Shown here in pieces: positions 2,267-45,887 of a stretch of DNA of 46,621 nt. The notes under the pieces are model-generated. The model did not search any database and was not told the origin of the DNA. It was given only the letters and a program-made list of their open reading frames with translations. The DNA is from Candidatus Tumulicola sp. (GTDB lineage Bacteria > Vulcanimicrobiota > Vulcanimicrobiia > Eremiobacterales > Eremiobacteraceae), in contig DATNNM010000018.1 in the NCBI GenBank assembly GCA_035601835.1, positions 197,890-244,510 of the forward strand, given 5' to 3'. The first letter of the stretch is position 1. Each line of letters starts with the position of its first letter. The position numbers were made by a program, and so were the translations under genes.

Positions 2267-2728
2267 ATGCGGCGAGCTATTTTGTTGGCAGCAATCTGTG
2301 CTTTGACGGCCGGCCCTCTTCTGGTCCACCAAGCCGCGCGTGCTGACGGTTCAGCAGGCCCAGTGTACTATTCCAACGGCGACGTCGCCGTGGCGACCGC
2401 GAAATGCGGGCCAGGCGAGACGTGCGCCACGATCACGACAGCGAGCGGCGACCAGATCAAGATCCTGACAGGCGGCTCGGGTCATTGCAACCCATACGTG
2501 TTGACGTTTATGCGTTATGTCAAAGGGCAGCTCGACGCGGTCTGGTCCACGCCCACCGATCGCAATCCCGACCAGCCCGGCGGCAGGATGAGCGGCCCCA
2601 AGTGTGGTGGTTTCCACAATACACGCATGAATCTCGAAGGCGGAGTCATCGACATGGGCATCTTCCAGAACCGCGACGGCACCATCTTCGTCCAGTTCTT
2701 CCGAGGCTCGCTCACCAAACCGTCCTAG
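2267..2728 (+). CDS. Small exported hypothetical protein, 153 aa
   Basis: The ATG at 2267 follows a near-consensus ribosome site, AAGGAGG, seven bases upstream. The product opens with a classical signal peptide: MRRA, a hydrophobic stretch to about residue 20, then a cut near ARADG. The mature part is about 125 residues with four Cys (KCGPGETC, HCNPY, KCGGF), which suggests two disulfides and an extracytoplasmic location. I recognise no family. It is the second cargo gene of unit 1 and lies 64 nt after the orphan arm repeat, so it may be the first gene of what was once a separate unit. Nothing in the sequence indicates a biochemical function. Confidence 0.7.
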   Translation: MRRAILLAAICALTAGPLLVHQAARADGSAGPVYYSNGDVAVATAKCGPGETCATITTASGDQIKILTGGSGHCNPYVLTFMRYVKGQLDAVWSTPTDRNPDQPGGRMSGPKCGGFHNTRMNLEGGVIDMGIFQNRDGTIFVQFFRGSLTKPS

Positions 2729-3108
2729 GCCACATGTGCATCTCCATCTGGGCGATCTGATCAGCCTGTTCGACGACACAAAACGTACTCTGGCTAAGGC
2801 CTAGCTGGCAGTGGAAGAACCTTCGCGTTGGATGTGTCCGCCGCCGCTCATTAGGCTAACTTCATTGCGTCGGCAGCTTCCCGTCGCAGGCCAGGGCCGC
2901 GCGCACTGATCTCCACACCGTTCGAGTTTCCCGAACCCGACACTGTGGTTGCGGTACTCGAAGCCCGATCATGCCGCGCGCAACCAGCAGAGGCTTGGCC
3001 CGTTGGCGGTCTTGTACGTAGTTAGCCCAACGGCAGCGTCGCCTCGGCAATGGTGGGTAATAGCACTAAAGGTGACGGTTCAATGTTATTGCGGGTCTCA
3101 AACGGAAC
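2729..3108. other. Non-coding stretch between two cargo genes
   Basis: No open frame here has a ribosome site or protein-like composition, and I see no hairpin with a U-tract, no tRNA and no copy of the attachment repeats. A promoter for the following nuclease fragment could lie here but cannot be pointed to. Confidence 0.5.
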
Positions 3109-3720
3109 ATGAGCGGCGTGCAGGTGTATTTGATTGACGGGACCTATGAATTGTTCCGGCATTTTTTCGCACTACCGTCTGCGGCAGACGCGAATGGACG
3201 AGAGGTGGGCGCCGTGCGCGGTGTCCTGGCTTCGGTTTTATCCATGCTCGAGCGCGGCGCCACGCATGTCGGTGTCGCAACCGATCACGTAGTAGAGTCC
3301 TTTAGGAACGACCTATATAGCGGATACAAAACCGGTGAAGGTGTGCCTCCTGAACTGCTCTCGCAGTTCCCTATGTTAGAAGAAGCGCTAGAGGCGATGG
3401 GAGTCATGGTCTGGCCGATGGTTTACTACGAAGCCGATGATGCTCTGGCTTCCGCGGCGGTCAAGGCCTCGCGAGATGCTCGTGTAAGCCGCGTGTTCAT
3501 TTGTACACCTGACAAAGATCTAAGTCAGTGCGTTGTGGGCACGCGGGTCGTTCAGCTGGACCGTAGACGCGACATCCTGCGCGACGAGGACGGCGTGGTG
3601 GCCAAGTTCGGGGTGATGCCGAAATCGATTCCGGACCCAAGGACGGAGTTGGCAACATCACGGGGATCACGGACACCGTTAGCACGGGATTCAACCGGAC
3701 GTTTGTTTATGATGACCTAA
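3109..3720 (+). pseudogene. Truncated 5'-3' exonuclease (FEN / Pol I N-terminal domain type)
   Basis: Residues 1 to about 175 match the N-terminal nuclease domain of the DNA polymerase I / flap-endonuclease family: VYLIDGTYELFRHFF, the region around VVESFRNDLYSGYKTG, the metal-site stretch YYEADDALASAA, and FICTPDKDLSQCV. These enzymes cut 5' flaps and ends using acidic-residue-bound metals. The family then needs a helix-hairpin-helix DNA-binding part starting after GVMPKSIPDY. Here similarity stops at SIPD (about 3635) and the frame runs 28 codons into RHS DNA read out of frame. The conserved acidic residues are intact, but the DNA-binding half is gone. It was probably a stand-alone exonuclease-like protein before the rearrangement. 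The ribosome site is weak. Confidence 0.7.
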
Positions 3721-5087
3721 ATCGGCTGGTCACGGCCAATTCGGGGGCTTCTCTGTGGAATTCCGGCTCCTACACCTATGATTCCATGGGCAACATGAAG
3801 ACCTTAGGATTGGGCAGCTCTCGGACGGCGTCATTCAGCTACTCAGGCACGCTTCCAAAACTCACCTCTGTAACGGAAAACGGCACGCCGCGCTCGGTGA
3901 GCTACGATGCGGTCGGCAACGAGACAGGCGTCGGCACGGCAACGTACGGCTACGGCACGCGCAACTTGCTCGAGTCCGGCGACGCGCTCACCTATACATA
4001 CGATGGCTGGGGGCGGCGTCTCGTAACCTCTGGCAGTTCGGGCACCCGCTACTCGTTTTTTAGCCCGGGCATGGCGCTGCTCTCGGAATCGGCGCTGACG
4101 ATGTCCGGAAGACCTGCCGTCGCTTATAAATACATTTGGTTCGCGGGCAAGCTCATTGCACAGGTGGACGGCTCGGGCACACACTGGACCTTCTCCGATC
4201 CCTTAGGAACGCCGGAGATTCAAACCAATAGCAGCGGCACAATAACCTACCAGGCCGAGTACGAGCCGTACGGAAAAGTTTTTGCGCTGCGCTCTGGTGA
4301 CGTGCACCAGCCGCTACGACTGCCGGGCCAGGTGGCGGAACAATTCGATACAGGAGCGAACGGTGCAACGGAGCGCAGCTACAACAATTTTCGTTGGTAC
4401 CGGCCGGGTTGGGGTAGGTACTCGCAGGCAGATCCGCTTGGACTCTTCGCCGGTTACAACACCTATAGTTACGCGGCCAATCAACCCGTAAACAATCGAG
4501 ATTCATCTGGTTTGTACTGGAGGTACGTCGACCCGAAACTTTGGCGTACCCTATTCGATCCGAATCAAGGTATGCTGGCTCAAAGCGCGATCTTTAGATG
4601 CTTATGGGGAAAGGTAGCCAGCGATCCTCGGCCGTACACGATACAGTTATCCAAAGAAACAAAAGGAAACCCGGGGCTATTCACACCGAGCGGGGATGCC
4701 CCGGACCTTGGCAATCCCACGGGCAGCATAACAGGCGGCGCGATAAGGTTAGATCCCGGCCCAGCTCAAACGCCGTACAACCGATATTCGATCGAGGACA
4801 CCATTGCTCACGAGGTCACTCATGCGACGGACTCTCTTGATGACTCGCGATACTGGGCAGATGTGATCGCGTTAGTTTACTTCAAATCACCGACTGGTGT
4901 GGGCCGTATCCTAGCTGACCAAGAAGAAGTAAACGGATATTGGGGTGAAGGCCGGGTTGACTCACAATTGAAAGGTGTGTCTTGGGGCGGTCCGTGGATG
5001 AACCAGGATTGGAAGGACTTCAGCAAGCATTACAAGCCGACTGCTTCCGCAGTGAGCGAAAGAGCGTGTATATGCACAGGACTATAG
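3636..5087 (+). pseudogene. 5'-truncated RHS/YD-repeat protein with HExxH metallopeptidase tip
   Basis: The frame enters abruptly at about 3636 with RHS-type repeats (DGVGNITGITDT, FVYDDLNRL, YTYDSMGNM) and continues with more YD repeats (YTYDGWGRR). It then reaches the RHS core end marker: DPLGLFAGYN, NQPVNNRD, SSGLYW at about 4434-4518. RHS proteins normally have over a thousand residues of shell before this point; all of it is missing. The roughly 190-residue variable tip that follows contains TIAHEVTHATDS, a zinc-metallopeptidase HExxH motif, so it resembles polymorphic toxins with a peptidase warhead. An ATG at 3786 could start a 433-aa product, but without the shell it would not be a functional RHS toxin. 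The C-terminal tip itself looks intact. Confidence 0.8.
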
Positions 5088-5491
5088 TGGGAGTGAGGAT
5101 CAAGGCAGCAATTCCTGCCGTTGCCGTGCTCTTTGCGTGGCTGACTTTCGGGTGTAGCTCTACAGTGCGTGCAACGGAACCTGAAGGACCGCGCCAGGCC
5201 CGGCAGGTTGGGGCGCTCGAGGGGCAACGCGTATTAGCGCCGTTGAAAGGTTCAGTCTTGCGCGCAGTGTGCGTCGCGCAAGGCGCATTTCTGCACGACT
5301 TAAAAAAGAACGGAGTAAGTCGCCCTCAGAGCGATATCATTGTCTCCGCAGTTTCGTTCCAAGGGAGGATCATCGTAAGCTTTAGGATCCTAATGCCAGC
5401 TACCCAGGTTGAAAAACGTGTTTGGGACTACGAGGTTGACCCGACTTCCTTTCGCGTTCTTGCAGCGGAGGTAGAGAACCCAAGGAAGTAG
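5072..5491 (+). CDS. Putative lipoprotein, possible immunity protein of the RHS tip
   Basis: Starting at the ATG at 5072 gives 139 aa. This start sits inside the last codons of the RHS frame (stop at 5085-5087), a 16-nt overlap that suggests translational coupling. The N-terminus is basic then hydrophobic and ends in LTFGCSS, a lipoprotein signal with the acylated Cys near residue 29. The mature part is about 110 residues with no recognised domain. Immunity genes normally follow directly after RHS toxin tips, often overlapping. A lipid-anchored periplasmic protein would suit an antagonist of a toxin acting in the envelope. Function is inferred from position only. Confidence 0.6.
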   Translation: MHRTIVGVRIKAAIPAVAVLFAWLTFGCSSTVRATEPEGPRQARQVGALEGQRVLAPLKGSVLRAVCVAQGAFLHDLKKNGVSRPQSDIIVSAVSFQGRIIVSFRILMPATQVEKRVWDYEVDPTSFRVLAAEVENPRK

Positions 5492-5683
5492 AGAGCCAAA
5501 ATCGCTACGCTGGCTGGAACCGCGGAGCCTGGTCCCGTGCCATCGGGCTACTGTTGAAATCCTTGGGCTTTTTCGAGGTAATCTGCTAGGAGCCACCGGG
5601 CTCCGATGAGCCAGGCGCTGCCCTTAGAGGCGTTTGAGGGGCTGCGTGCGTGGAGTCCGAGGGCCAAGACCTGGCTGGCAATT

Positions 5684-5706
5684 TTGCTGACCAAATGCTG
5701 ACCAAC
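5684..5706 (+). repeat. Arm-type direct repeat, right arm of att copy 2
   Basis: The pair TTGCTGACCAA-ATGCTGACCAAC ends 82 nt before att copy 2, as in copy 1. Upstream, 5492-5683 has no convincing gene. Confidence 0.65.
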
Positions 5707-5788
5707 TGCGTAATACGGGCGTGAATTCACCAGCACCAGACGGCACGAGGTGTGCCGCAATCACTCGAGAAGCGCCTTCTTCCGCTCC

Positions 5789-38100: not shown

Positions 38101-39723
38101 ATGAAGATCCAGGTTTCTCATGAGAAGCCGCAACGTGTTGCGGCTGAAATGCTCGCTCTTCCCATTTTCGCCGACCCGGAGCCCGAAGATGCCGTCGTTT
38201 CCGTCGACCGGTCAATGGGCGGCATCATCAGAGAGCTGTACCGCAATGGCGAACTCAAGCGCCGCGAGGACGAGCTCCATGTGATACCCTCGACGAAGCT
38301 GCGCGCGAAGCGCGTCGCGCTCATCGGGCTTGGGTCCAAAGCGCATTTTTCGGCTGCTGGGATCCAGCGCTTCGCGGGTCTGGCGGTGCGGGCTGCTTCG
38401 CGGCGCGGGCTGACAAGCGTGGCGTGCGTGCTTCCCGAGTCGGTCGCTCTCGACCCCGCCGAAGCCGGCGAGCTTTTCGCCGAAGGCGCCTTGATGGCGA
38501 CGTTCGATCCCGCGCCCTATCGCAGCAACAACGAGTCGCGCGGTGCGGAGGTCAAGTCGGTGATCCTCATCGCACCGGCGGCCAATGCGCGCAGTCTCAA
38601 AGCCGGTATCGCGCGCGGGTTGGCGCTCGGCGAGGCGGTCAACGCGGTGCGCGAGATGGTCAATCTTCCTTCCAACGACATGACGCCCTCGCATCTCGCG
38701 GAACGTGCGAAGGCGTTCGGCAAGCAACACGGCCTGAAGGTCACCGTGCTCGATCGCGCTGAGATGAAGCGCATGGGCATGGGTTCTTTTCTGTCGGTGA
38801 GCGCCGGCAGCGAGGAGCCGCCGAAGATGATCGCGATCGAGTACCGCGGCGACAAAAGCACCAAGACCACCTTGGGGCTGGTCGGCAAGGGCATCACCTT
38901 TGACACCGGCGGCATCTCGCTCAAGCCGGCGCAGGACATGGACGCGATGAAAGGCGACATGGCCGGCGGCGCGACCGTCATCGGCGCGATGGCGGCGATC
39001 GGGCAGCTCAAGCCCAAGGTGAACGTCATCGGCATCGTGTGCGCGACCGAGAACATGCCCTCGGGCAAGGCCACCAAGCCGGGCGACATCGTGCGCGCTA
39101 TGAACGGAAAATCCATCGAGATCATCAACACCGATGCGGAGGGCCGCCTCGTCCTGGCAGACGGGCTGTGTTGGGCGCGCAAACTCGGCGCAACCCACTT
39201 GCTGGACATCGCCACGCTCACGGGCGCTGCGGTCGTCGCGTTCGGCCACACCACGACCGGCGTCATGAGCAACGACCGCGCATTGGTCGATCTGTTCCAC
39301 CAAGCCACTGCGCCGTACGGCGAACGCTATTGGGAGCTGCCCTTGTTCCCGGAGTATGCCGAGCTGATCAAAAGTCCCATTGCCGACATGAAGAACAGCG
39401 GCGGGCGCCCTGCGGGCACCATCTTCGGCGCCATGTTCCTCAAAGAGTTCGTCGAGGACGTGCCGTGGGTCCACCTCGACATCGCCGGCACTTCGTGGGC
39501 CGAAAAAGACGGCGGGCATATCGTCAAAGGTCCTACCGGCGTCGCGCTGCGACCAATGGTTCGGCTTGCTGAACTCATGGCTACGCGCGCGCCGCACGGC
39601 CACGCCGATGAAGCGGCACAACGGCGCTTCCTCGCGACCTCAAGCGCGGAGGCGGCGCATAAAGGCGGCAATGGCAAGTCGAGCGGGCGCGTTCGGGCGC
39701 GTCGCTCGCGCGCGCCGCGTTAG
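38101..39723 (+). CDS. pepA: Leucyl aminopeptidase (M17 family)
   Basis: 540 aa, longer than the usual ~500. It removes N-terminal residues from peptides using two metal ions. Domain order: N-terminal macro-like domain (residues 1-160), then the catalytic domain from about 190 (VNLPSNDMTPSHLAERA). Metal and catalytic motifs: VGKGITFDTGGISLKP (Lys and Asp ligands), MKGDMAGGATVIGAM, and the signature NTDAEGRLVLADGL with its catalytic Arg. DVPWVHLDIAGTSW is near the domain end. The final 40 residues are an Arg/Lys/Ala-rich tail (KGGNGKSSGRVRARRSRAPR) not found in most relatives. The ATG at 38101 stands alone, without overlap. Confidence 0.95.
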   Translation: MKIQVSHEKPQRVAAEMLALPIFADPEPEDAVVSVDRSMGGIIRELYRNGELKRREDELHVIPSTKLRAKRVALIGLGSKAHFSAAGIQRFAGLAVRAASRRGLTSVACVLPESVALDPAEAGELFAEGALMATFDPAPYRSNNESRGAEVKSVILIAPAANARSLKAGIARGLALGEAVNAVREMVNLPSNDMTPSHLAERAKAFGKQHGLKVTVLDRAEMKRMGMGSFLSVSAGSEEPPKMIAIEYRGDKSTKTTLGLVGKGITFDTGGISLKPAQDMDAMKGDMAGGATVIGAMAAIGQLKPKVNVIGIVCATENMPSGKATKPGDIVRAMNGKSIEIINTDAEGRLVLADGLCWARKLGATHLLDIATLTGAAVVAFGHTTTGVMSNDRALVDLFHQATAPYGERYWELPLFPEYAELIKSPIADMKNSGGRPAGTIFGAMFLKEFVEDVPWVHLDIAGTSWAEKDGGHIVKGPTGVALRPMVRLAELMATRAPHGHADEAAQRRFLATSSAEAAHKGGNGKSSGRVRARRSRAPR

Positions 39724-39802
39724 CGCGAACTTTAGACTTTTCTGAGAATAACCTGGGATAAGCAGGGCCGAAATTCATAGGAGCCAACAAAGCTCCTTGC
39801 CC

Positions 39803-42800
39803 ATGGTTGTGAGACGTTTCTTCGCAGGGGCGATCGGCGCTGCCGCGTTGGCGACGGCTGTGGCGTTCGCCGCGCTGCCCGCAAGCGCCGACGAGACCGG
39901 CCAAATCACCATCACCGTGACGGATGCGACGTCAAAAGCGCCGATCAGTTTGGCGCGCGTGCTGCTCGATGGACCGGTCCTCACGAGCGAGTTGTCGGGC
40001 CCGGACGGCAAAGTCTCATTCGTGGACGTACCGGTGGGCATCTATCGCGCGCGCGTGGCGAAGTCCGGCTACGATCCGGTCACCTCGGCCCAGTTCGAAG
40101 TGCTCGGCGCTCAAATCATCGCGGTCGATATCGCACTGGCCAAGTCGCAGTTGAAGTCGCTCGGCACGGTCACCGTCAGGTCGACGGTCACCATCAGCTC
40201 GAGCAGCATCTCCGATTCGAGCGCGACCCGCAAGCTCTCCGACACGCTCGCCGATGCGCTGAACAAATTATCAGGCGTGAGTCTTTCCACCGACCCCAAC
40301 GGCTCCAGCGACGCGACGGTGACCGTCTCGCTCGAGGGGCACGATCCGACGCAGACGGCGCTGACCCTCGATGGCGTGCCGCTCAATGCTCCGGGAGTGG
40401 CCGGCGATTTGCGCCAGATCAACACGGACCTGTTCAGCAGCGCGTCGGTGAACTTCGGCGCGAGCGCAGGCGCGTTGGGCGGCGGCGTGGGCTTTCGTTC
40501 GGTAGAGCCGACCCTGACGTGGCAGGGCAAACTCTCGACGTCGGTCGGGTCGTACGGCAAGGCCGCGACCATCTTTTCAGAACAGGGCACGGCCGGCGGG
40601 CTGGGCATCGCGTTCACGCACTCGGTCCGCGGCAGCGACAGCCCGCTCGACCAGCAGATGTTCCTCGACACGAGCGGGCTCGATTACACGCATTTGGGAG
40701 CCAGCGAGAGCGGCGGCAACCTGCTCAAACTGCGCGCGCGGCTCGGCAGCGCCCAGACTCTCACCGGCACACTTGTCTCTTCCAATAACTATGATGACTT
40801 GCTGTGCACCCGCTTCACGGGCCCCGTGCCGTGCGGCTACGGCCCCGGCAACACCAGCTTCCGCCATTTTTCATTCGCCAGTCTTTCGGATACCGCGCTG
40901 GCCGGCTTGGTCGGTTTGCAGTTCACGCTGTTCGGCACGCAATCGACCTTCGATCGTGATTTGCTCGACCGCCTCGTGGCCGGCGTGCCGTCCCCGTTCG
41001 GCACGCGCACCGTGAACCAGACCCGCGGTGCCAGCATCACAGCCAACTTGCCTTCGCGCGAACGCCACACGTACTCCATACAAGCCACCACGAGCGACAC
41101 GCACGTCACGGTCACACCGCTCGCGGGCTCGCCGAGCTTTTTCGCAAACGCCAACGGCTTGTCCGATTTCAGCACGCTCACGTTCTCCGACAAGATCAAG
41201 TCCAGCCCCAAGCTGACCCTGGGATCGCGCCTCGGCCTGAGCTATTCTTCGCAGACGTCCGCGTCGTTCATCGGCGGCGTGAATGCGGCATGGAATCCGA
41301 ACGATTTCGACACGCTGTCCGGCACCTTCGATCTGGGCGGATCCGGCGCGTTCCCGTCGCGCGTCCAGACGTTGACCGACCCGGCTTCACTTCGCTTCGA
41401 CTGCAACGCGGACGCGGGCTACGGCAGCGGCCCTGGAGACGAACCCGGCGCGCAGAGTTCGGTGTCCGCGCGCATGAGCTGGCAGCATAAGATGCGCGCC
41501 GGCCAAGTGACCGCTACCCTGTACCATCAGCTTCAAAACGACGTGCTGCTCAACACGCTCGTCAACGGCTCGGTCTTGCCGCCGGGATACTTTCCGCCGA
41601 ATTACATCAACAACGCGCAACTCATCTTCCAATCGCCGGCTGGCTGCGCGACGCCGGCTGGGTTCGGTCCGAACAACCTCTACCTGAACGTGCCGATCGC
41701 GGGCACGCGCCGCGTCTACGAAGGCATCCAGCTCACCGGCGGTTTTCGCGCCGGGCAAAGCCTCGTGATCGAGCCCTACTACAACGTGCAGGTCGTCAAG
41801 GAACTCTCGAACGACCCCCGGCTGCTTGACCCGTTCTCCATCACCATTCCGGGCGCACAGCTGCCCGGCGTGCCGCTGCACCGCGCGGGCATGACGCTGG
41901 ACTTCAAACCGCCGCGGTCGTCGATCGAGTGGCTCGCCGATGCGCAGTACGTCTCATCGAACAACTCGCAGAATCTGCCTGGGTATGTGACCACCGACGC
42001 CGGCGTGGCCATCCAATTCACGCACGGCACGCTGACCATCGCCGGGACGAACTTGCTCAACAAATTCGGCGGCGTGTTCGCGACGCCGGCCAACGCAGTG
42101 CCGCTGCCGACGCTCGGAGGGCCGCCGCTGCCCACCGTGGCGAGACCGCTTGCGCCGCGCCAATACTCGTTCACGTACAGCGTGAAATTCGGCAATCTGC
42201 CGGCGGGTCAGAACGCGTCGCTGTTGGCGTCCGTAGGCGCGGCGCCGGGTCCGAACCGCCAGGGCTTCTTCGCCTCGCTTCCTGCCTTGAGCAAAACGCC
42301 GCCCGCCGAGCCGTTCGCGCTCGACAAGAAACCGACGTGCACCGGCGACACCGTTCCCACTGCCACAGCGCTGCTCGATCAGATCAAATCGTATGTAGCG
42401 GCGGTTGACGCTGCCAAGGGCCCGAGCGGTTATCCGCAGGCGCCGCCTGCCGACGCGCCCGCCATCACGGGCATGAACGTGACGTACCATCGAACCGACG
42501 ACGCATACGCGCTCATCTTCACGGCGACCAAGTTCCAGACCATTCGCGGCATCATGTCCTGCGCGCAGGTGCACATCGGCAGCGCGGCGGACGCGCAAGC
42601 GCAGAATCTCTACGTGCCGCCGGTAAGCGCGTTCAGCCGCTTCCCGCTTGTGTACGCGCCGGCGCAAGGATTCTATCTCGTGCGTCAGCCGCAACAACCC
42701 GGCCAGGAGCAGTTCCGCTTGTTCCGCCTGCCAACCGCAATACCGAGCGCTCCATTTGCGTCGATCACCGCACCTGGTTGCACGGCAGAGTTGCGCCAGG

Positions 42801-43111
42801 CGGCTGAACCCTTGTTGGGCGCGCTGAACGCTTATTTCGCGAACTACGATCCGGCCAAACCGCCCGCGCAGGCGCCGGCCGGCTGGACCGTGACGCCGCA
42901 CGTGCTCGCGAAGGGCTACTACGCGGAGCTGCAAGTCGAGGACATCTCGCGCCTGCCTGCGGTGCTGTATTGCGGCCACGTCTCGGCCGCGACGAGCGAC
43001 GAGATCAAGGCGCTTGGATTAGACGGCGCGCGGCCGCCGACGCTGAACTACACGCCTTCGATCGGAATCTATTTGATGCGCTTCAATCCGCAGCAGCGCG
43101 GCCAAAACTAA
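39803..43111 (+). CDS. TonB-receptor-like outer membrane protein with duplicated C-terminal extension
   Basis: 1102 aa from the ATG at 39803 (a TTG at 39797 fits the distant AGGAG slightly better). Signal peptide to about residue 30 (ALPASADET). About 33-110 is a carboxypeptidase-regulatory-like beta sandwich (ITITVTDATSKAPISLARVL). About 130-245 is a plug-like domain (LSDTLADALNKLSGVSLSTD, TALTLDGVPLNAPG). The barrel then runs to about 797, ending in a typical last strand YSFTYSVKF. Beyond this, where such proteins normally stop, about 300 residues continue as two similar units (about 845-963 and 992-1098), each with Cys, PP-AP, an inner Cys (MSCAQV, LYCGHV) and YAPAQGFYLVR / YTPSIGIYLMR. 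The substrate is unknown. Confidence 0.8.
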   Translation: MVVRRFFAGAIGAAALATAVAFAALPASADETGQITITVTDATSKAPISLARVLLDGPVLTSELSGPDGKVSFVDVPVGIYRARVAKSGYDPVTSAQFEVLGAQIIAVDIALAKSQLKSLGTVTVRSTVTISSSSISDSSATRKLSDTLADALNKLSGVSLSTDPNGSSDATVTVSLEGHDPTQTALTLDGVPLNAPGVAGDLRQINTDLFSSASVNFGASAGALGGGVGFRSVEPTLTWQGKLSTSVGSYGKAATIFSEQGTAGGLGIAFTHSVRGSDSPLDQQMFLDTSGLDYTHLGASESGGNLLKLRARLGSAQTLTGTLVSSNNYDDLLCTRFTGPVPCGYGPGNTSFRHFSFASLSDTALAGLVGLQFTLFGTQSTFDRDLLDRLVAGVPSPFGTRTVNQTRGASITANLPSRERHTYSIQATTSDTHVTVTPLAGSPSFFANANGLSDFSTLTFSDKIKSSPKLTLGSRLGLSYSSQTSASFIGGVNAAWNPNDFDTLSGTFDLGGSGAFPSRVQTLTDPASLRFDCNADAGYGSGPGDEPGAQSSVSARMSWQHKMRAGQVTATLYHQLQNDVLLNTLVNGSVLPPGYFPPNYINNAQLIFQSPAGCATPAGFGPNNLYLNVPIAGTRRVYEGIQLTGGFRAGQSLVIEPYYNVQVVKELSNDPRLLDPFSITIPGAQLPGVPLHRAGMTLDFKPPRSSIEWLADAQYVSSNNSQNLPGYVTTDAGVAIQFTHGTLTIAGTNLLNKFGGVFATPANAVPLPTLGGPPLPTVARPLAPRQYSFTYSVKFGNLPAGQNASLLASVGAAPGPNRQGFFASLPALSKTPPAEPFALDKKPTCTGDTVPTATALLDQIKSYVAAVDAAKGPSGYPQAPPADAPAITGMNVTYHRTDDAYALIFTATKFQTIRGIMSCAQVHIGSAADAQAQNLYVPPVSAFSRFPLVYAPAQGFYLVRQPQQPGQEQFRLFRLPTAIPSAPFASITAPGCTAELRQAAEPLLGALNAYFANYDPAKPPAQAPAGWTVTPHVLAKGYYAELQVEDISRLPAVLYCGHVSAATSDEIKALGLDGARPPTLNYTPSIGIYLMRFNPQQRGQN

Positions 43112-43139: not shown

Positions 43140-45887
43140 TCACGCGGTTTGCGCGGGCTCCAGCGGGCGGCCGGCGGCGACGGCCAACGCGATGTCGATG
43201 CGAGAGCGCAGACTGCACTTCGAAAGAATGTTGCCGATGTGGAACTCGACCGTTCGCGGCACGATGTGCAGCAGCTCGGCGATCTCGGCGTTGGTCTTGC
43301 CGTTCGCGATGAGCAGCGCGATGGCGTGCTCGCGCTGACTTAAGAGACCCTTGTGCTGCTGCCAACGACCAGGGCGGAAGCGATGCGCGCGGGCGAGCGC
43401 TCGGGCGCGGTCGCCTTCGTGTTTGGCTCCCATCAAGTCGAACGCTTCGACCACCTTGCCGAACAGCGCGCGATCCTTGCAGGCGTCGGCGACCGCCAGC
43501 TGCAGATACCCGCGCCAGTAGGCCATCTGGCCCTTTTCCGCCACGCCCAGCAAGAGGCTGCGAGCCGTGTCGACGTCACCATCCAAGAGCGCGCGGAAAC
43601 CGTCCACTTCCTGAAGCAGCGCGGTTGCGACGGAGGACCCGCCGGCGCAGCGTTGGGCGAGCGCCTCGCGTGCGGCTGCCGCTTCGCTGCGACGACCCAA
43701 GCCGTAGGCGATGCGGGCGATGCCGGCCTGGGCACGCAATTCGTGGGCCTCTGCGTGAGCCTGCGCCGAGCCGCCGTTGAGCGCGACCTTGTAGAACGCG
43801 AGCGCTGACTCCATCCGCCCGAGCAGCTCATCCACGAAGCCTGCGATGTATGCCGCGGCGCGATTCTCGGCAGGGCACAGATCGAGCGCGCGGAGTTGCG
43901 TCAGCGTCGCTTCGGCGGCTTCGAAGTCGCCGAGCATCGCCAATAACGCGGTTTGCTGGCCGAGCGCGCGTCCATAGAATGCTCGGTTCGTTTCGCGCAC
44001 CGAGTTGCCGGCGCTGATGCTCAAGCCCAAGGCCTCGCGCAAACGGCCCTGGTCGGTCATCACGCTGGCCAAGTTGCTCATCAGCAGCGAACGGACCGCA
44101 TTCGACTTGTTGCCCTGGAAGTCGATGCCGTACCGGCACCAGCGTTCGAACTCGGTGATGTCGCCGGCGAGATCGTTGAGATAGCAAAGAATCGCGCAGC
44201 CGCCGGCCACGTCTTGCGCGAGATCGGCCGCCGCGCCGGCTCGAACCGCTTCCTCGACGATGGCGACGCCTTTGGCGGGTTCTCCGAGCCGGGCCACGAC
44301 GTGGCCGTAAACGCAGTTGAGTCTGACCGCCTCGCGCCGATCGCCCCGCCCGTTCAGCGCGACGATGCCGCGCTCGAGCGCGTCGCGCGCCTGCTCCAGG
44401 TCGCCCAAACGCTCGAAGATGGATCCCAAGAGGCGCAAGATGCGCGGCAAGAATTCGGGGGCGACCGTCGGCGCGGCCTCGAGCGCTTCGACGAGCAGCG
44501 GTTGCGCGGTCACGTGATCGCGCGTGCTTTCCCAAGCAGCTTCCGCATAGCGCAGTTGGGCCACCACGCGCAAGCGCGGCGGCGCGCCGCCGCTTGCTGC
44601 TTCGAATGCCGCCATGGCCGCTTGCGCTTCGACCTTGCGGCCGGTGGCGCGCAGCGCTGCCGCGATGCCGGCGTGGGCTTCGGTCGCGGTGTCGGAAACT
44701 GGGTGCGCAAGTTCCAGCGCGCGTTTGAATGCGCCCAGCGCCTCCGAAGGCGCGGCGCGATCGAGGCTTGCCCAACCCAATTGGTTGTATTGGATCGCGG
44801 CGGCTTCGTGGCGCCCGGCGCCGGCGAGGTGAGCCGCGCGCTGGCGATCGTCGGTCGTGATCGACGCGAGTTTACTGTGGCGGCGCGCGCGAGCCTTGTC
44901 ATCCAGCACCGAATAGCACGCTTCGCGCAGCAGCGCGTGGCGGAATTGATAGCTGTCTTCCTGCCGCGTCAGGATGCCGTAATCCACGAGTTCCAAGAGC
45001 GCCGCCATGGTCCGGCCTTGCGTGAAGTTGGCAAGGCGGCCCAGAAGCGACGGGGTCAGCGGTTGGCCGTGGGTGGCAAGCCATCCGGCTATGTCAGCGG
45101 CGTCAAGAGACAGAGCCCGGAGGCGCTCGTTCAAGGCCCAGCGCAGGTCCGGTGAAACGCCGGCGTCGGATGACCGCCCGTCGGCCAGCAACAGCTCCAC
45201 GTACAGCGGGTTGCCTGCGGTTCTCTCATCTAGGGCCTGGAGGGCGGTTTCGTCCAGGGGCAGCTTGGGCGCGAGGGCAGCGACCAGGGTGCGCAGGTTC
45301 TCCCGGTCCAGGCCCCGGAGGCGGGTCACGCTGGCCAGGTCGCTGCGGGCCAGGGTGGCGGCGAACTCGTCGAAGAGCGCGGTTCCCGGTCTTCCTGCAA
45401 GATGCCACAAAATCGGCAGGTCCTGGAGCCTATCGATGCAGTACCGCAGTGTTGTGAGCGTTTCGGCATCGGCCCAGTGGAGATCGTCCACCTGGAGCAC
45501 GAAGCCCCACTCCCCCGCCGCCTCTTCCAGCGCGCTGCGCAGGTGCCAGAGTCTGTCGGCTTCGCCTGACTCGACCAGCGCTCGCAAGGAGGTCGCTTTC
45601 ACCCGCCCGCTGCGGTGCATACCGCGGACGAGCGAGATAAGCGTGTCTGCGGCGAGATGCCCTGCACCGAGAACGCACCCAGAATAGAAGACGGACCGCG
45701 TGCGGGACAAGAGTGAGCGGCTTTCGGACAGCAACCGGGTCTTTCCGACCCCGGGTTCGCCAAGCAAGAGCATGGCTGGCCTGCTGCTGGAGCATAGCGC
45801 TTGCAACACGTCGTTCCGGCCGATTAACGGGCCTGCTGGGACCCGAGCGGCTGCCTTACGACTGTGGATTTCCCTAGTGAGTGCCAC
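43140..45887 (-). CDS. Large LuxR-family transcriptional regulator with AAA ATPase domain
   Basis: 915 aa from a GTG at 45887 without an obvious ribosome site. The NTPase domain comes first: Walker A GEPGVGKT at residues 43-50, Walker B FVLQVDDLHWAD near 150. A long helical region of TPR-like repeats follows (about 330-830; for example LGAFKRALELAHPVS, LGDLEQARDALERGIVALNG). The last 65 residues are a LuxR-type helix-turn-helix (LLSQREHAIALLIANGKTNA, then EIAELLHIVPRTVEFHIGNI). This is the MalT/LAL architecture: ligand and ATP binding drive oligomerisation and activation. It is convergent with the outer membrane receptor gene, which may or may not be its target. The inducer is unknown. Confidence 0.9.
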   Translation of the reverse strand: MALTREIHSRKAAARVPAGPLIGRNDVLQALCSSSRPAMLLLGEPGVGKTRLLSESRSLLSRTRSVFYSGCVLGAGHLAADTLISLVRGMHRSGRVKATSLRALVESGEADRLWHLRSALEEAAGEWGFVLQVDDLHWADAETLTTLRYCIDRLQDLPILWHLAGRPGTALFDEFAATLARSDLASVTRLRGLDRENLRTLVAALAPKLPLDETALQALDERTAGNPLYVELLLADGRSSDAGVSPDLRWALNERLRALSLDAADIAGWLATHGQPLTPSLLGRLANFTQGRTMAALLELVDYGILTRQEDSYQFRHALLREACYSVLDDKARARRHSKLASITTDDRQRAAHLAGAGRHEAAAIQYNQLGWASLDRAAPSEALGAFKRALELAHPVSDTATEAHAGIAAALRATGRKVEAQAAMAAFEAASGGAPPRLRVVAQLRYAEAAWESTRDHVTAQPLLVEALEAAPTVAPEFLPRILRLLGSIFERLGDLEQARDALERGIVALNGRGDRREAVRLNCVYGHVVARLGEPAKGVAIVEEAVRAGAAADLAQDVAGGCAILCYLNDLAGDITEFERWCRYGIDFQGNKSNAVRSLLMSNLASVMTDQGRLREALGLSISAGNSVRETNRAFYGRALGQQTALLAMLGDFEAAEATLTQLRALDLCPAENRAAAYIAGFVDELLGRMESALAFYKVALNGGSAQAHAEAHELRAQAGIARIAYGLGRRSEAAAAREALAQRCAGGSSVATALLQEVDGFRALLDGDVDTARSLLLGVAEKGQMAYWRGYLQLAVADACKDRALFGKVVEAFDLMGAKHEGDRARALARAHRFRPGRWQQHKGLLSQREHAIALLIANGKTNAEIAELLHIVPRTVEFHIGNILSKCSLRSRIDIALAVAAGRPLEPAQTA

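Follow-up and report, generated by a model that had tools for sequence, protein, structure and literature searches.

The DNA analyzed here, a stretch of 46,621 nt hereafter called the window, comes from Candidatus Tumulicola sp. (assembly GCA_035601835.1, contig DATNNM010000018.1). It carries the gene of a TonB-dependent receptor (Table 1), in a reading frame that is open throughout and unbroken and whose true start is likely the ATG at 39803. A leucyl aminopeptidase (M17) gene (38101-39723), located on the same strand, ends 73 bp upstream of the receptor, and a gene convergent with it (43140-45887) encodes a LuxR-type regulator that has AAA and TPR regions.

Few outer-membrane proteins have been studied as thoroughly as TonB receptors. 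The present one has a Plug domain and a 22-strand barrel, and a TonB partner is available, with seven TonB_C matches in the genome. Plug, barrel and signal peptide are shared with Cir, FepA, PfeA, and BtuB, and the N-terminal CarboxypepD_reg domain is found in Oar/SusC-like receptors as well. However, Cir, FepA, PfeA, and BtuB stop at the last barrel strand, a feature that is usual, though not defining, for TonB receptors, whereas here 305 residues are added.

Table 1. Position of the receptor gene and of its parts within the window.
Feature	Positions	Strand	Basis and remarks
TonB-dependent receptor	39797..43111	+	1104 codons; Foldseek E about 1e-25 vs. Cir/FepA/PfeA
Signal peptide MVVRRFFAGAIGAAALATAVAFAALPASA	39803..39889	+	From translation; helix 3-21 in AlphaFold2 model
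CarboxypepD_reg (PF13620), residues 36-114	39902..40138	+	Pfam E=1.5e-9
Plug (PF07715), residues 130-228	40184..40480	+	Pfam E=2.6e-8; 34.8 bits vs. cut-off 23.9
22-strand barrel, residues 243-799	40523..42193	+	AlphaFold2 strand list; Foldseek
Last barrel strand RQYSFTYSVKFG, residues 788-799	42158-42193	+	
Flexible linker, residues 800-832	42194..42292	+	pLDDT <50 at 802-823; Gly-rich in most relatives
Tail unit 1, residues 833-975	42293..42721	+	Cys848 and Cys922; YAPAQGFYLVR at 42653-42685
Tail unit 2, residues 976-1104	42722..43108	+	Cys995 and Cys1059; YTPSIGIYLMR at 43049-43081

The Tail Consists of Two Related Units

The original prediction described about 300 residues past the barrel, arranged as two similar units having paired cysteines and a YxPxxGxYLxR end. 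This description agrees with what is found. Beyond the last barrel strand, the 305 residues form a linker followed by two units that share 32% identity over about 138 columns (BLASTP E=3e-14), and both units carry a cysteine pair (C848/C922 and C995/C1059) and the terminal motif (YAPAQGFYLVR and YTPSIGIYLMR). The tail does follow the barrel, as had been proposed, with the minor correction that the units proper begin near 42293, after the linker. A chance repeat is ruled out, as the alignment of one unit with the other scores 130 vs. a maximum of 77 among 500 shuffles.

All four tail cysteines are invariant in the tails of 47 diverse relatives, and one disulfide probably closes each unit (C848-C922 and C995-C1059), judging from the alignment. 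The invariant residues of the tail are chiefly structural (Cys, Gly, Pro, Tyr), and a binding site is not evident among them. Neither Pfam nor NCBIfam matches the tail, Pfam detecting only CarboxypepD_reg and Plug in the receptor, and a search of PDB sequences with a tail profile gave no match. The units appear to form an undescribed domain family, absent from Pfam and lacking a solved relative. A literature search among open-licence papers found no description of a TonB receptor with a conserved, duplicated C-terminal periplasmic module.

Predicted Structure and Topology

Modeled alone with AlphaFold2 from 47 aligned tails, the tail gives two alpha/beta domains with a mean pLDDT of 92.8. Each unit is made up of a helix, two strands, a helix, a strand, a short helix, and two strands. 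The full-length model, obtained with 34 sequences (pLDDT 82.9), has 22 barrel strands, as counted from the strand list, then a disordered linker and the same two units outside the barrel. Additional barrel strands are therefore rejected, since both models fold the tail separately, and the structure prediction called for by the original prediction thus yields a separately folded module. Foldseek comparison of the tail with the PDB and with viral models returned no match with E <0.1. The only shape overlap worth noting is with a type IV pilin (4d40), which shares with the tail a helix and an antiparallel sheet, but this overlap is weak and homology was rejected (E=1.9, probability 0.16, TM 0.41 of target). 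Because the tail fold has no significant match, assigning a function by analogy is impossible.

In an even-stranded barrel with a periplasmic, plug-bearing N-terminus, the C-terminus is also periplasmic. Since the barrel modeled here is even-stranded (22) with a periplasmic N-terminus, the tail is almost certainly located in the periplasm. OmpA and the fimbrial ushers also have an internal last-strand signal and a periplasmic domain after the barrel, even if their barrel sizes and tail folds are unlike those of this receptor and the tail has no OmpA-family match. Hence, with an ordinary even-stranded barrel and the OmpA and usher precedent, the internal strand signal needs no new folding route. 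The earlier expectation that folding or orientation must differ is not supported, both ends of the predicted barrel being periplasmic. Between the surface and periplasmic modules that had been envisaged, the predicted topology favors the second and makes surface placement unlikely; a role as a binding module would be plausible.

Within the barrel region, two cysteine pairs, C337/C346 (40805-40834) and C536/C617 (41402-41647), are invariant across 34 full-length relatives, which suggests disulfides there too.

Distribution and Conservation

Of 149 genomes searched in the phylum Candidatus Eremiobacterota, 82 have the tail. A single-unit profile matches 96 genomes, every one within the class of Candidatus Tumulicola sp., a confinement that holds for the scan of these 149 genomes. 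One weak match outside the class (G144, E=0.006 in the tail search) is gone with the unit profile. A first contig scan using a single tail sequence as query gave no match, and among plasmids neither tail nor barrel was matched. The named relatives are almost all metagenome-assembled genomes of Candidatus Eremiobacterota/Vulcanimicrobiota, together with some named “bacterium” and one Proteobacteria.

Conservation was followed on named loci retrieved by plug and barrel peptides. A tail of one or two units is present on all intact receptors having contig room (41/41, counted from the listing), and the listed receptors without it are all frameshifted or cut at a contig end. Relatives thus keep the tail, as the original prediction required. 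A sequencing or fusion artifact is ruled out by the occurrence of the same architecture in dozens of genomes. The domain family has been retained throughout a class of soil bacteria that are for the most part uncultured.

The genome of Candidatus Tumulicola sp. has twelve Plug matches. Ten other TonB receptors of this genome, whose C-termini were read, are tail-less, with a strand-like C-terminus at the end or within a few residues of it, so that the general statement that TonB receptors end with their last strand is true, or nearly so, for these ten. The tail therefore marks one receptor family, and not the receptors of the genome generally.

Modularity and History of the Unit

A search for the unit as a stand-alone protein, also suggested by the original prediction, was successful. 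Three secreted single-unit proteins were found (L069 8962-9462, L208 5776-6288, and L209 5543-6085), two of them in genome G128 and one in G126. All have a signal peptide and both cysteines, and they are encoded on the same strand as tailed receptors, about 4, 20, and 30 bp upstream of them. The signal peptides and this adjacency argue that the unit is a periplasmic domain working alongside the receptor. At L208 (G128), the neighboring tailed receptor (2567-5772) is split by a frameshift.

Receptors with a single unit occur in at least 15 genomes, a Gly-rich insert interrupting the unit. In those of loci L210-L216, this long insert is mostly followed by a C-terminal motif resembling PELPQGGGSLK. 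The existence of one-unit tails and of stand-alone units indicates that the unit is a genuine module, and from the one-unit forms it is clear that a second copy can be dispensed with. In a tree of the units, all 47 first units are set apart, with supports of 0.997 and 0.938, from all 47 second units, the stand-alone units group with the first units, and the single units fall between. One ancient duplication explains this tree.

Possible Functions of the Tail

The most likely reading, which we hold with somewhat better than even confidence, is that of a TonB receptor whose linker and tandem domains of an undescribed family form a tethered docking module in the periplasm. The linker would tether the tail domains flexibly to the barrel, and the tail would hold, beside the pore exit, either the cargo coming in or a partner located in the periplasm or inner membrane. 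What is observed is the anatomy of the tail, its duplication and conservation, its predicted fold, and its modularity; from there, we infer its periplasmic location, its disulfides, and docking. In favor of a docking module are the independent fold, the four invariant cysteines, the retention in 41/41 receptors, the adjacent stand-alone units, the single ancient duplication, and the lack of any tail on ten other receptors of the genome. Weighing against it are the chiefly structural nature of the invariant residues, with no evident binding site, the fold without a significant match, and the one-unit forms. The tail is a compact, foldable target, and its partner would reveal how cargo or signals are handed over past the pore.

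An alternative role, which we regard as rather unlikely, is that of a C-terminal transducer: the tail would tell a two-component kinase, via its periplasmic sensor, whether the receptor is occupied, and would be a counterpart of the FecA-type N-terminal signaling domain. It comes from the gene neighborhood. Three genes precede the tailed receptor in family f3 and are transcribed in its direction, coding for an HD-domain protein, an OmpR-type regulator, and a HAMP/HisKA kinase; in most loci examined, regulator and kinase are its immediate upstream neighbors. An OmpR-type regulator lies within 3.5 kb of the main tailed receptor in 6/6 cases vs. 2/68 for other plug proteins, counted by eye in six genomes whose six receptors are orthologous and so not independent. 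The linkage recurs, differently arranged, at L033 and next to L120, a receptor with one unit. However, in Candidatus Tumulicola sp. no kinase is encoded near the receptor, the nearest OmpR/kinase pair being on another contig. Moreover, no kinase accompanies second tailed receptors (L046 and L047, for example), G016 has kept the kinase with the receptor absent, and the linkage may reflect co-regulation alone. Thus, a signaling role is possible but not general, as the f3 linkage is missing in Candidatus Tumulicola sp. FecA and FpvA resemble the tailed receptors in having an extra periplasmic domain, with a regulatory pair encoded nearby in some tailed lineages. In contrast, the domain is here C-terminal, duplicated, and unrelated in sequence, an FecA-type STN domain was not found in the receptor with Pfam, and the neighbors are OmpR/kinase genes instead of sigma/anti-sigma genes. 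A TonB receptor that signals to its own dedicated sensor kinase by way of a tandem, newly folded tail in the periplasm is graded as doubtful, a shade below the transducer role in general; if true, it would reverse the usual N-terminal, sigma-factor arrangement.

A cell-wall anchor, in which the tail would tie the receptor to peptidoglycan as in OmpA, is improbable. The topology is OmpA-like and the linker flexible, but PF00691 (OmpA C-terminal, peptidoglycan-binding) matches neither the tail of the receptor nor those of the 47 relatives, and no similar fold was found. In addition, ordinary OmpA-type domains exist elsewhere in the Candidatus Tumulicola sp. genome, and the secreted stand-alone units have no membrane anchor of their own. 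Surface proteins commonly carry duplicated, Cys-containing modules, but a surface-exposed ligand-capture module is very improbable given a predicted 22-strand barrel whose periplasmic N-terminus implies a periplasmic C-terminus, and stand-alone units bearing merely a cleavable-type signal peptide.

A few further neighbors can be mentioned. Receptors of family f3 also have a LuxR-type gene upstream, but the LuxR-type gene of the window shows no homology to it. The leucyl aminopeptidase-receptor order seems to be present also in L031, and many f3 receptors are followed by an M20 peptidase; the cargo may be peptide-related.
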